Of a stretch of 52,353 bases of DNA, positions 6,763-11,177 are shown piece by piece. Position numbers and translations under genes: made by a program. The first letter of the stretch is position 1. Each line of letters starts with the position of its first letter. Below the pieces are notes generated by a model. That model worked only from the letters and a program-made list of their open reading frames with translations. It did not search any database and was not told the origin of the DNA. The DNA is from an uncultured bacterium (lineage in GTDB: Bacteria > Bacillota > Clostridia > Oscillospirales > Oscillospiraceae). Location of the stretch: assembly GCA_948469375.1 (NCBI GenBank), contig CAOKLO010000021.1, positions 1 through 52,353 on the forward strand, given 5' to 3'.

Positions 6763-6855
6763 ATGATGTTCAAAGCAATTGCCAGCGCCAAGTCGGCGGA
6801 AACCGCTTCCTGTCGCCGATGCGTTAGGCTGTCCTATGGTTTGGAAATAGTTTGA
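6763..6855 (+). CDS. possible 30-aa peptide
   Basis: A short frame beginning ATG ATG, 8 nt after AAGGAGG, encodes 30 residues with a CRRC pair (CRRCVRLSYGLEIV at the end). It lies just upstream of the dyad and promoter of the next gene and shares no recognisable family. The ribosome site is better than chance would often give, but coding status is unproven; it may be debris of the broken region to its left. Confidence 0.25.
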   Translation: MMFKAIASAKSAETASCRRCVRLSYGLEIV

Positions 6856-6897
6856 AAATCCCAGGCTTTTTTGCTTAGGATTCCACATGGTACAAAC

Positions 6898-6944
6898 AGA
6901 TAGATGGCATATGTCAATTTATTGTTGACATATGCCATCTATCT
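6898..6944. repeat. 47-nt perfect inverted repeat over a promoter -35 box
   Basis: Two 20-nt arms (6898-6917 and 6925-6944) are perfect reverse complements around a 7-nt spacer. The right arm begins with the TTGACA -35 box of the next gene. Transcription starts downstream (about 6960), so it would not be a hairpin in that mRNA; a DNA operator for a dimeric or tetrameric protein is more likely. The DUF134 half of the downstream protein, a predicted HTH domain, is a candidate ligand (inference). Confidence 0.75.
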
Positions 6945-6953
6945 TTCTATAAT
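6925..6953 (+). promoter_or_regulatory. sigma-70 type promoter of the DUF134-NifX gene
   Basis: TTGACA (6925-6930) and TATAAT (6948-6953) with a 17-nt spacer. The -35 box is inside the inverted repeat, so bound protein would compete with RNA polymerase. Confidence 0.8.
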
Positions 6954-6981
6954 AAACGTATCTCATACGGGAGGTGTATTC

Positions 6982-7755
6982 ATGCCAAGACCTGTAAAAT
7001 GCAGAAGGGTTTGCCATTTTCCAAAGGTTTTGGAATTCCGGCCTGCGAAAACCGAGATCCAGCGCCCTCCGGTCCTCATGACCGTGGACGAGTATGAAAC
7101 GATCCGGCTGATTGACCGAGAGGGACTGTCACAGGAGGCGTGCGGGGAATGGATGCAGGTAGCCCGGACAACGGTGCAAAAAATTTACGATAGCGCCCGA
7201 AAAAAGCTGGCGGAAGCGCTGGTAGAGGGAGTTCCCCTTCATATTGAGGGCGGTGAGTTCCAGCTTTGCGATGGAAAAAGCACGGATCGTGAATGTATGG
7301 ATTGCTTTAAGCGGCAATACCATCAGCAATATGAAAAACAAAAAGGAGACAGTGTTATGAGAATCGCAGTAACCTATGAAGACGGTCAAATCTTTCAGCA
7401 TTTTGGCCGCACAGAGCAGTTTAAGATCTATGATGTACAGGACGGAGCCATCGTGTCGTCCACGGTGGTGGGCACCGGCGGAAGTGGACACGGCGCGCTG
7501 GCCGGTGTGCTTACCGCTCTGAAAACGGACGCGCTGATTTGCGGAGGGATCGGCGGCGGCGCCCAGGCCGCTCTGGCCGCGGCGGGCATACGGCTGTATG
7601 GCGGCGTATCCGGCCAGGCTGACGAGGCGGTGAAGGCTTTGCTCAAAAACGAGCTGGACTTTGAGCCTGATGTGCATTGTGACCACCATGGCCATCAGGC
7701 AGGGGGCCACACCTGTGGGGAACACGGCTGCGGGAGGCACGCCTGCGGCGGCTGA
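6982..7755 (+). CDS. DUF134 and NifX-like domain fusion protein
   Basis: A 257-aa protein. Residues 1-110 are a DUF134 (UPF0251) domain with an N-terminal PRPVKCRRV block and a helix-turn-helix like sigma region 4 (SQEACGEWMQVARTTVQKIY). Residues 126-235 are a dinitrogenase iron-molybdenum cofactor (NifX/NafY) fold: MRIAVTYEDGQIFQHFGRTEQF and an ICGGIGGGAQ loop. The tail (240-257) is His/Cys-rich and could hold metal or an FeS cluster. In clostridia these domains are often separate neighbouring genes. Here they are fused, yet a ribosome site remains at the junction. The ATG at 6982 follows GGGAGG; the in-frame ATG at 6904 lies in the dyad, upstream of the promoter, and is rejected. No nitrogenase genes are present. 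Likely a metal or redox sensor. Confidence 0.85.
   Translation: MPRPVKCRRVCHFPKVLEFRPAKTEIQRPPVLMTVDEYETIRLIDREGLSQEACGEWMQVARTTVQKIYDSARKKLAEALVEGVPLHIEGGEFQLCDGKSTDRECMDCFKRQYHQQYEKQKGDSVMRIAVTYEDGQIFQHFGRTEQFKIYDVQDGAIVSSTVVGTGGSGHGALAGVLTALKTDALICGGIGGGAQAALAAAGIRLYGGVSGQADEAVKALLKNELDFEPDVHCDHHGHQAGGHTCGEHGCGRHACGG
7342..7359 (+). promoter_or_regulatory. internal ribosome site and start codon before the NifX domain
   Basis: AAAGGAG lies 8 nt before the ATG at 7357-7359, in frame with the fusion (residue 126) and exactly at the start of the NifX domain. It could yield a 132-aa NifX-only product, or be a relic of two separate genes. Confidence 0.45.
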
Positions 7756-7782
7756 CCAGCCGACGCAGCACCCTTTGTTTTG

Positions 7783-7803
7783 TGCAAAATATTATTATTT
7801 GCA
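7783..7803. promoter_or_regulatory. dyad just upstream of the acyl-CoA dehydrogenase promoter
   Basis: TGCAAAATA and TTATTTGCA form a near-perfect inverted repeat with a 3-nt centre, ending at the base before the -35 box. The position suits an activator site. No protein could be assigned. Confidence 0.35.
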
Positions 7804-7832
7804 TTGACAAGCCTGCCTGAATATGGTATATT
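7804..7832 (+). promoter_or_regulatory. sigma-70 type promoter of the acyl-CoA dehydrogenase fusion
   Basis: TTGACA (7804-7809) and TATATT (7827-7832) with a 17-nt spacer; the start point would be near 7839. Confidence 0.75.
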
Positions 7833-7843
7833 TTCACTGAGCA

Positions 7844-7862
7844 GATAATGATTCCTATTATT
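7844..7862. promoter_or_regulatory. Fur/PerR-like box over the transcription start
   Basis: GATAATGATTCCTATTATT matches 14 of 19 positions of the classical Fur box GATAATGATAATCATTATC. It sits just after the -10 box, where a bound repressor would block initiation. Fur or PerR control would suit an iron-containing O2-handling system (inference). Confidence 0.35.
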
Positions 7863-7891
7863 GTTATAAATCACTCAAAGGAGGTCACCGT

Positions 7892-9802
7892 ATGTTGTTC
7901 CAGACCACGCAGGCTCACGAGGAACTGCGCGCCAAAATCCGTGCCTTTGCGGAGGCGGAGGTGAAGCCCAACGCCATCCTCATGGACCAGGAGAGCCGGT
8001 TCCCTGCCGAGGCCATCAAAAAATTTGCCGAGATGGGGCTGATGGGCATCCCCTACCCCAAAGAGTACGGCGGCGCGGGACTCGACGTGATGAGCTACGC
8101 CATCGCTGTGGAGGAGCTGTCCCGGGTGGACGGCGGCACGGGCGTTATTCTGTCCGCCCATGTGTCCCTGGGCACCTGGCCCATCTTCGCCTTCGGCACC
8201 GAGGAGCAGAAGCAGAAGTACCTGGTCCCCTTGGCCAAGGGCGAGAAGATCGGCGCGTTCGGCCTGACGGAGCCTAACGCGGGCTCCGACGCGGGCGGCA
8301 CTGAGACCACCGCCATCGACAAGGGCGACCACTGGCTGCTCAACGGCCAGAAGATTTTCATCACCAACGGCGGCGTGGCGGACACCTACGTGGTTTTCGC
8401 CGTCACCACCCCGGACATCGGCACCCGGGGCATCTCCGCCTTCATCGTGGAGAAGGGATGGAAGGGCTTCACCTTCGAGCCTCATTACGACAAGATGGGT
8501 ATCCGCTCCTCCGAGACCTGCCAGCTCAACTTCGACGACGTGAAGGTGCCCAAGGAGAATCTGCTGGGCAAGGAGGGCCAGGGCTTCAAGATCGCCATGG
8601 CCACTCTGGACGGCGGCCGTATCGGTATCGCCTCCCAGGCTTTGGGCATTGCCCAGGGGGCCTATGAGTCCGCCGTGGAGTACGCCAAGGAGCGCGTCCA
8701 GTTCGGCAAGCCCATCGGCTTTAACCAGGCCCTGACCTTCAAGCTGGCGGATATGGCCACCAAGCTGAAGTGCGCCCGGATGCTGGTGTACTCCGCCGCC
8801 GAGAAGAAGGAGGCCCACGAGCCCTACGGCGTGGACGCCGCCATGGCCAAGCTGTATGCCTCTGAGACCGCCCTGGAGATCGTCAACGACGCGGTGCAGA
8901 TTTACGGCGGCACCGGTTTCCTCAGGGGCATGGATGTGGAGCGGATGTACCGCGACGCCAAGATCACCACCATTTATGAGGGCACCAGCGAGGTCCAGCG
9001 CATGGTCATCGGCGCGTCCATCATGGGCAAGCCCCCCAAGAGCGCGGGCGGGTCCTCCAGCGTGGCCAAAAAGCCCGCCCCCGTCACCGGCGTGCGCAAG
9101 GGCATGATTCTCAAGGAGGGCGGCGCCAAGGAGCGGGTTGACACTCTGGTGGCCGCGCTGAAGAAGGACGGCTATGACTTTTCTGTGGGCATCCCCATGG
9201 ACACCCCCATTGCCCAGGCGGAGCGGGTGGTATCCGCCGGTCAGGGCATCGGCTCCAAGGAGAACATGAAGCTGATCGAGGACCTGGCCAAGGCCGCCGG
9301 CGCCGCCATCGGCTCCAGCCGTCCCGTGGCGGAGACCCATAAATTTGTCCCGCTGAACCGCTACGTGGGCATGTCCGGCCAGAAGTTCAAGGGCAACCTG
9401 TACATCGCCTGCGGCATTTCCGGCGCAATTCAGCATTTGAAGGGCATTAAGGACGCGTCTACCATCGTGGCCATCAACAAGAGCTCCAACGCCCCCATCT
9501 TCAAAAACTGCGACTACGGCATTGTGGGCGACGTCAACGAGATCCTGCCCCTGCTGGCTGAGGCCCTGGGCCTGGAGGAGAAGCAGCCCGCGCCTCCCAT
9601 GGTGAAAATGAAACGGCCTCCCGCTCCCAAGGCCGAGCCCATCGGCCCGCGCTACGTCTGCGGCGGCTGCGGGTATGAGTACGTCCCCGAGCTGGGCGAC
9701 CCCGACGCGGAGGTGGCTCCCGGCACCCTGTTTGCCAACCTGCCCGAGGGCTGGGTTTGCCCCGAGTGCGCCGAAAGCAAGGAGATGTTCATCGAGGCGT
9801 AG
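7892..9802 (+). CDS. acyl-CoA dehydrogenase / EtfA C-terminal / rubredoxin fusion
   Basis: A 636-aa three-part flavoprotein. Residues 1-380 are a complete short-chain acyl-CoA dehydrogenase (FGLTEPNAGSD, IYGGTGFLRG, IYEGTSEVQR), with the likely catalytic base at Glu363. After a Pro/Lys linker, residues 405-560 match the FAD-binding C-terminal half of electron transfer flavoprotein alpha (VVSAGQGIGSKEN, IACGISGAIQHLKG, NCDYGIVGD). The N-terminal EtfA domain is absent. Residues 586-636 are a rubredoxin with ligands Cys590, Cys593, Cys623 and Cys626. Electrons could run from acyl-CoA through two FADs to the rubredoxin iron inside one chain. The flavodiiron gene follows at once, and rubredoxin is its usual donor. 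The start follows AAAGGAGG. No EtfB is in the window. Domain calls are secure; the pathway is inferred. Confidence 0.92.
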   Translation: MLFQTTQAHEELRAKIRAFAEAEVKPNAILMDQESRFPAEAIKKFAEMGLMGIPYPKEYGGAGLDVMSYAIAVEELSRVDGGTGVILSAHVSLGTWPIFAFGTEEQKQKYLVPLAKGEKIGAFGLTEPNAGSDAGGTETTAIDKGDHWLLNGQKIFITNGGVADTYVVFAVTTPDIGTRGISAFIVEKGWKGFTFEPHYDKMGIRSSETCQLNFDDVKVPKENLLGKEGQGFKIAMATLDGGRIGIASQALGIAQGAYESAVEYAKERVQFGKPIGFNQALTFKLADMATKLKCARMLVYSAAEKKEAHEPYGVDAAMAKLYASETALEIVNDAVQIYGGTGFLRGMDVERMYRDAKITTIYEGTSEVQRMVIGASIMGKPPKSAGGSSSVAKKPAPVTGVRKGMILKEGGAKERVDTLVAALKKDGYDFSVGIPMDTPIAQAERVVSAGQGIGSKENMKLIEDLAKAAGAAIGSSRPVAETHKFVPLNRYVGMSGQKFKGNLYIACGISGAIQHLKGIKDASTIVAINKSSNAPIFKNCDYGIVGDVNEILPLLAEALGLEEKQPAPPMVKMKRPPAPKAEPIGPRYVCGGCGYEYVPELGDPDAEVAPGTLFANLPEGWVCPECAESKEMFIEA

Positions 9803-9829
9803 TTCCTTTTTCTTGTAAGAAAAAGGAAC
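9802..9829. repeat. hairpin after the acyl-CoA dehydrogenase gene
   Basis: Two perfect 13-nt arms (GTTCCTTTTTCTT and its complement) around GT begin at the stop codon. No T run follows, so it may be an mRNA-stabilising or dispersed-repeat hairpin rather than a terminator. No clear promoter is seen before the flavodiiron gene, which favours co-transcription. Confidence 0.5.
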
Positions 9830-9959
9830 CGAAAAAGAACTTTTGGTTCGCTTCCTTCCGGGTAGGTTTTCCAACGTCTCCGCCCGGCGACGGAAGGATT
9901 GCTCGACGATACGTATGACACTTTAATTGTATCCAATTTTGCGATAAGGAGGCTCGCTT

Positions 9960-11177
9960 ATGTACTGCGTGCGCAGTGTTACCGATAACCTATACTGGGT
10001 GGGCGCCAACGACCACCGCACCCACCTCTTTGAGAACATCCATCCCATTCCCCGGGGCGTGAGCTACAATGCCTATCTGCTGCTGGACAAATCCACCGTC
10101 CTGTTCGACACCGTGGACTGGTCCGCCTGCCGCCAGCTGCTGGAGAACCTGGACCACCTGCTGGAGGACCGGCCCCTGGACTACCTGCTCATCAACCACA
10201 TGGAGCCCGACCACGGGGCCTCCATCGAGGAGATCCTGATCCGCTGGCCCCAGGTGAAGGTGATCTCCACCCCCAAGGCGTTCATGCTCATGCGCCAATT
10301 CGGTTTCCACATCGACGGACACGAGCTGATCGAGGTGAAGGAGGGGGACACCTTCTCCTTCGGCAGCCACACCGTCACCTTCGTGGAGGCCCCCATGGTC
10401 CACTGGCCCGAGGCCATGGTCACCTTCGACCTCACCAACGGGGTACTCTTCGCCGCCGACGCCTTCGGCTCCTTCGGGGCGCTGGACGGCAAGCTGTTCG
10501 CCGACGAGGTGGATTTCGACCGGGACTGGATTGACGACGCCCGGCGCTACCTCACCAACATCGTGGGCAAGTACGGCCCCCACGTCCAGCTGCTGCTGAA
10601 AAAGGCCGGGGGCATCCTGGACAAGATCAAATTCATCTGCCCCCTCCACGGGCCGGTGTGGCGCAAGGACCTGATGTACTTCGTGGACAAGTACGACAAG
10701 TGGAGCAAGTACCAGCCCGAGGAGCAGGGCGTCCTGATCGCCTACGCCTCCATGTACGGCAACACCGAGTCCGCCGCCCAGGCCCTGGCCTCCAAGCTGT
10801 GCGAAAAGGGCTGCACCAACGTTTGGGTATATGACGTGTCCAACGTCCATGTGTCCCAGTTGGTCAGCGAGGCCTTCCGGCTCAGCCACCTGGTGTTCGC
10901 CTCCGTCACCTACAATCTGGGTATCTATCCGGTGATGCACGACTTCCTGATGCATTTGAAGGCCCTGAACTTCCAGAACCGAACCTGCGCCATCATTGAG
11001 AACGGCTCCTGGGCGGTGAAATCCGGCGACCTGATGCAGAAGTTCCTGGAGGACGAGATGAAGAACATGACCGTCCTCAACGACCGGCTCACCCTGGCCT
11101 CCGCCCTGCACCCGGATAAGGCCAGCGAGCTGGACGCCCTGGCCGACGCCATCATCGAGTCTATGGCAAAGGAGTAA
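9960..11177 (+). CDS. flavodiiron protein (O2/NO reductase)
   Basis: A 405-aa FprA/ROO-type protein. The metallo-beta-lactamase-like domain (1-250) holds the diiron ligands: His80, Glu82 and Asp84/His85 in HMEPDH, then His148, Asp167 and His230. The flavodoxin domain (257-400) binds FMN through the AYASMYGNTES loop. Flavodiiron proteins reduce O2 to water, or NO to N2O, in the cytoplasm with electrons from rubredoxin. The rubredoxin-tailed acyl-CoA dehydrogenase upstream (157-nt gap, same strand) is the obvious donor. The start is fixed by TAAGGAGG upstream. The protein lacks its own rubredoxin or flavin reductase tail, so an outside donor is required. Confidence 0.93.
   Translation: MYCVRSVTDNLYWVGANDHRTHLFENIHPIPRGVSYNAYLLLDKSTVLFDTVDWSACRQLLENLDHLLEDRPLDYLLINHMEPDHGASIEEILIRWPQVKVISTPKAFMLMRQFGFHIDGHELIEVKEGDTFSFGSHTVTFVEAPMVHWPEAMVTFDLTNGVLFAADAFGSFGALDGKLFADEVDFDRDWIDDARRYLTNIVGKYGPHVQLLLKKAGGILDKIKFICPLHGPVWRKDLMYFVDKYDKWSKYQPEEQGVLIAYASMYGNTESAAQALASKLCEKGCTNVWVYDVSNVHVSQLVSEAFRLSHLVFASVTYNLGIYPVMHDFLMHLKALNFQNRTCAIIENGSWAVKSGDLMQKFLEDEMKNMTVLNDRLTLASALHPDKASELDALADAIIESMAKE

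Follow-up and report, generated by a model that had tools for sequence, protein, structure and literature searches.

Here we describe a two-gene locus that very probably encodes a butyryl-CoA:oxygen oxidoreductase (BOOR), an assignment made by analogy with an enzyme pair of Fusobacterium nucleatum, in which an acyl-CoA would drive the reduction of O2 to water. The locus lies in a stretch of 52,353 nucleotides (contig CAOKLO010000021.1 of assembly GCA_948469375.1; hereafter the window) from the draft genome of an uncultured bacterium of the Oscillospiraceae, probably a gut anaerobe. It consists of a gene that fuses an acyl-CoA dehydrogenase, the flavin adenine dinucleotide (FAD)-binding half of the electron-transfer flavoprotein subunit EtfA and a rubredoxin, followed by a gene for a flavodiiron protein (FDP). 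The mechanism itself is already known, such a pair having been described and tested in F. nucleatum in 2024 as BOOR, with the components BCR and FDP (Bystrom & Wolthers 2024, Biochemistry 63:2352; via PMC12288474). No new mechanism follows from the locus, which extends the published pairing to another host lineage and supports it independently from genomic data.

At the dehydrogenase part of the fusion, butyryl-CoA (or another short acyl-CoA resembling it) would give up two electrons to become crotonyl-CoA; these would pass from the FAD of that part to the FAD of the EtfA-derived domain and then to the rubredoxin, all on one chain. From there, they would move to the flavin mononucleotide (FMN) and then the diiron site of the FDP, where O2 would be reduced to water. 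We infer this order of carriers, as well as the same activity in this copy as in F. nucleatum. The original prediction, an earlier reading of the DNA letters, had proposed that electrons reach O2 from acyl-CoA in this way, by dehydrogenase, EtfA half, rubredoxin and FDP and without EtfB, and this is the route reported for the same pair of domain sets in F. nucleatum (PMC12288474).

Architecture of the two proteins

The coordinates and strand of both open reading frames (ORFs) are exactly as first read, and Pfam domains and motif residues confirm a three-part fusion followed on the same strand by a rubredoxin-free FDP (Table 1). The fusion product is a single chain of 636 residues, which thereby carries the dehydrogenase, EtfA FAD half and rubredoxin that characterize the BOOR fusion; its Etf part reaches to around residue 559 by NCBIfam EtfA models, the scores of which fall below their cut-offs. 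An IYEGT motif at residues 361–365 places a glutamate at E363, which we take to be the catalytic Glu of acyl-CoA dehydrogenases and which is invariant in both of our alignments (11 and 25 proteins). The four rubredoxin cysteines (C590, C593, C623 and C626) are likewise all invariant, in 10 and in 25 aligned rubredoxin-bearing proteins.

The FDP has 405 residues and comprises a beta-lactamase-like diiron domain, ODP in Pfam, and a Flavodoxin_1 domain, with no rubredoxin. Its residues H80, E82, D84, H148, D167 and H230, presumably the six diiron ligands, are invariant in 39 of 39 aligned flavodiiron proteins. With only the ODP and flavodoxin domains and a complete ligand set, it is a class A flavodiiron protein, and its donor is likely to be the rubredoxin fused to the dehydrogenase.

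The pairing in related genomes

A full-length fusion was found in 18 of 60 related genomes (own included), with one more split across two contigs. Across the phylum, 9 of 398 genomes matched at E <= 1e-150: five with full fusions (own included), one with a fusion that lacks the rubredoxin (genome G150) and three with ordinary dehydrogenases. In all 22 rubredoxin-bearing fusions of the same phylum (own included), the FDP gene comes next on the same strand; this count includes one locus in which the FDP gene is cut by the contig end (L050) and one genome in which the fusion is split over two contigs (G032).

We also queried titled genome records with the C-terminal portion of the fusion and used the best 80 of 531 confirmed relatives, which are the nearest relatives rather than a random sample and share genomes with the set of 22. 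The FDP gene follows on the same strand in 77 of these 80 loci and the other three end at a contig edge; the count retains ten loci in which the fusion lies only partly in one ORF (seven cut by the contig start, three with a broken frame). Titles among the 80 include Agathobaculum, Flavonifractor, Intestinimonas, Oscillibacter, Butyricicoccus, Roseburia, Eubacterium and Lachnospiraceae, among others. The two genes are separated by 157 bp in the window, by 35 to 179 bp (measured by ORF ends) in the nine closest loci (L064–L072) and by a median of 23 bp over the 80 loci. The pairing is far beyond chance, and the pair is real and widespread. The check set at the outset, that relatives should keep the two genes together, was passed in both sets, and the partner FDPs also group as a clade of their own.

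That grouping comes from a tree of the full-length ODP-family proteins of 30 chosen genomes together with the FDPs of the 80 loci, with nine weak or partial ODP matches (one of them above the cut-off) left out and the F. nucleatum FDP absent. The 112 distinct proteins (82 partner, 30 other) were thinned, with the window's own placed first, to 39 (16 partner, 23 other) by removing near-identical rows and partner rows shorter than 380 residues. The 16 fusion-adjacent FDPs form one clade with a support of 100/100 against the 23 other FDPs; six long end branches were flagged, all of them among the other rows, where long branches meet. By a criterion of our own, not taken from a paper, the partner FDPs are a separate lineage in this protein tree. 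A second FDP of the window's own genome (contig C97) falls among the 23 others, outside the partner clade. One further locus (L136) contains two flavodiiron genes, at 6792-8006 and 8062-9267; the second lies on the opposite strand directly behind the partner gene, is 56% identical to the window's FDP and also falls outside the partner clade.

These results bear on the alternative that the fusion is a rubredoxin-linked acyl-CoA dehydrogenase serving mainly other acceptors, such as rubrerythrin or the second FDP, with the adjoining FDP as just one client. The rubredoxin of the fusion is the sole PF00301 match in the draft genome, and the second FDP on contig C97 offers another possible acceptor. 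However, a partner FDP adjoins every rubredoxin-bearing fusion gene that has room for one, and the fusion-adjacent FDPs are a single clade; we consider this alternative quite unlikely.

Fuel, acceptor and flanking sequence

The draft genome (91.6% complete, 6.24% contaminated) provides a metabolic setting for the pair. Its only two PF01012 matches lie on contig C19 and correspond to EtfB and EtfA, the latter gene reading open to the contig end. RnfC scores above its cut-off, the 3-hydroxyacyl-CoA dehydrogenase domain 3HCDH_N has five matches, two of them strong, and two contigs end in thiolase pieces, one above and one below the cut-off. Together, these make a butyryl/crotonyl-CoA cycle plausible, and the published cycle, which involves Bcd-Etf and Rnf, may operate in this host. 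No HpaB-family protein (4-hydroxybutyryl-CoA dehydratase) was found in the window's own genome. The F. nucleatum pair is interpreted as linked to energy conservation through Bcd-Etf and Rnf (PMC12288474), which speaks against the earlier suggestion that O2 is burned off outside the energy system.

Several observations weigh against identifying the window pair as BOOR. Many relatives possess a separate dehydrogenase around 55–60% identical to the fusion, but none was found in this draft genome, whose other three acyl-CoA dehydrogenases are 42–46% identical to it, so that a supply of butyryl-CoA is presumed here; the draft is, however, incomplete and contaminated, and its EtfA gene reads open to a contig end. 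Among NCBIfam models, the fusion scores best with acryloyl-CoA reductase AcrC, its 477.5 bits falling short of the cut-off of 640. Three loci (L102, L104 and L135) have no single open frame for the fusion though the contig continues upstream, and two (L082 and L135) have an FDP divided between two ORFs. The fusion of genome G150 (561 residues, acyl-CoA dehydrogenase plus EtfA FAD half, 60% identical to the window's; L061:7386-9071, G150:C5) has neither a rubredoxin nor an FDP gene within its 16-kb stretch, and orthology with FN1424/FN1423 of F. nucleatum rests on architecture and gene order. Of the 21 genomes of its taxonomic order, G150 alone gave a match to this fusion at E <= 1e-145. Read by eye, the G150 fusion gene comes after an apparent amino-acid ABC transporter.

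The AcrC match and the absence of a close separate Bcd from the draft genome also favour the possibility that the same machine runs mainly on another acyl-CoA, for example from the 2-hydroxyacyl-CoA pathways of amino-acid fermentation. Two acyl-CoA dehydrogenases on contigs C57 and C58 (L205 and L206) lie near acyl-CoA dehydratase activases (TIGR00241, above cut-off) and family III CoA-transferase relatives, the latter all below model cut-offs. Dehydratase activases and family III CoA-transferases occur in reductive amino-acid pathways, and these neighbourhoods may represent such fermentation pathways. On the other side, the five best matches of the dehydrogenase part in the PDB are named acyl-CoA or butyryl-CoA dehydrogenases, in a search with the fusion in which the best stretches of all 60 sequences listed, of 206, fall within residues 2–411 (the dehydrogenase part with the first stretch of the linker). 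Moreover, the F. nucleatum enzyme uses butyryl-CoA (PMC12288474), and the missing Bcd is to be read against an incomplete, slightly contaminated draft. A different main fuel is, in our judgement, unlikely. Less likely than either alternative taken separately is their combination, in which the pair is fuelled by a different acyl-CoA, for instance from reductive amino-acid fermentation, and also acts as a general rubredoxin-level source of electrons for O2 defence, the second FDP included, a role suggested because no rubredoxin other than that of the fusion was found in the draft genome.

As for the acceptor, the original prediction had allowed nitric oxide (NO) as well as O2. In the PDB, the FDP matches best to 1ycf, a nitric oxide reductase by name, as would suit a pair working mainly as an NO reductase. 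However, NO reductase activity was reportedly absent from the F. nucleatum pair (PMC12288474), and the partner FDPs are a clade of their own (in a tree without the F. nucleatum FDP). By analogy, NO is unlikely to be an acceptor of the window pair and its inclusion was probably wrong; a mainly NO-reducing role seems very improbable. Reduction of O2 by a BOOR remains our reading of the locus.

Three small features mark this copy: a promoter-like site of its own, a dispersed palindromic repeat in the gap between the genes, and the lack of a neighbouring Rrf2 relative among the window ORFs searched. Just 5′ of the fusion gene is the promoter-like site, TTGACA-17-TATATT with TG before the second hexamer, which agrees with the consensus at 11 of 12 positions, and the fusion gene may therefore be transcribed from its own start. 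A second site (7833-7861) agrees at 9 of 12 positions, giving two promoter-like sites between 7740 and 11300 versus a mean of 0.7 (standard deviation 0.9) in 50 shuffles. The final base of the fusion's stop codon is also the first base of the 13-bp inverted repeat, which lies in the gap before the FDP gene. This intergenic palindrome (9802-9850) belongs to a dispersed repeat found at 19 places in the draft genome, this one included (22 match rows, of which three are opposite-strand matches of the same places).

In 18 of the 63 usable loci (including L113, L115, L129, L137 and L143), the gene immediately upstream of the fusion encodes an Rrf2-like protein, in agreement with the regulator reported beside such pairs (PMC13404960); usable loci were those of the 80 with an intact fusion start and at least 900 bp upstream. 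An Rrf2-like ORF is also present in five of the 17 loci left out (L098, L104, L107, L117 and L135). The queries were five proteins sampled from related loci, with the family checked for four. In the window, the ORF upstream of the fusion (6904-7755) combines DUF134 and NifX/NifB-type (Nitro_FeMo-Co) domains in one frame by Pfam. We rejected it as a member of the system, as no homologue (E <= 1e-8) appeared in the 80 loci or in the 23 stretches taken around fusions of the same phylum, some of them short upstream, with 63 of the 80 loci having at least 900 bp 5′ of an intact fusion start.

Table 1 Features of the locus and domains of the fusion protein
Feature	Position	Strand	Basis
BCR-type fusion gene	7892..9802	+	ORF, Pfam domains, motifs
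Class A flavodiiron protein (FDP) gene, without rubredoxin	9960..11177	+	ORF, Pfam domains, ligand residues
Promoter-like site, just 5′ of fusion gene	7804..7832	+	Consensus match only
Perfect 13-bp inverted repeat, 2 bases between arms	9802..9829	Not assigned	Repeat search
Acyl-CoA_dh_N	Fusion residues 6-118		Pfam, above curated cut-off
Acyl-CoA_dh_M	Fusion residues 122-217		Pfam, above curated cut-off
Acyl-CoA_dh_1	Fusion residues 229-377		Pfam, above curated cut-off
ETF_alpha (FAD domain)	Fusion residues 440-520		Pfam, above curated cut-off
Rubredoxin	Fusion residues 587-633		Pfam, above curated cut-off

Comparison with known systems

Among class A flavodiiron proteins, of which we take Moorella FprA to be one, the window FDP is typical in its two domains and full ligand set, but differs in belonging to a clade of its own that is tied to the fusion gene. 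With the electron-bifurcating Bcd-EtfAB complexes, the fusion shares the acyl-CoA dehydrogenase and the EtfA FAD domain, but it differs in having no EtfB and no EtfA domain I, and in its added rubredoxin. Pfam finds no PF01012 (EtfA domain I/EtfB) in the fusion at E <= 0.001, which rules out the fusion itself as a bifurcating complex. Because both EtfB and EtfA domain I are missing, bifurcation between NADH and ferredoxin would not be expected of it.

The BOOR homologues described for gut Clostridia in a 2026 preprint (PMC13404960) are reported there with the Pfam architecture of both proteins and with a neighbouring Rrf2 regulator. The window proteins share both architectures but, among the window ORFs of at least 60 residues, no relative of the five sampled Rrf2 proteins was found.

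The closest tested counterpart is the F. nucleatum pair FN1423-FN1424, named as BOOR (PMC12630350), which uses butyryl-CoA as substrate and reduces O2, the two proteins forming a complex (PMC12288474). It belongs to another phylum, the titled relatives of the window's pair being Bacillota with no Fusobacterium records among the best 80 of 531, and is likened to the window pair here through its three-part fusion, its two-domain FDP partner and the adjacency of the two genes. BOOR is described as a means by which anaerobes dispose of O2 at the expense of a weak reductant rather than NADH, thereby conserving free energy; with O2 present, it may reduce the amount of butyrate produced (PMC12288474).
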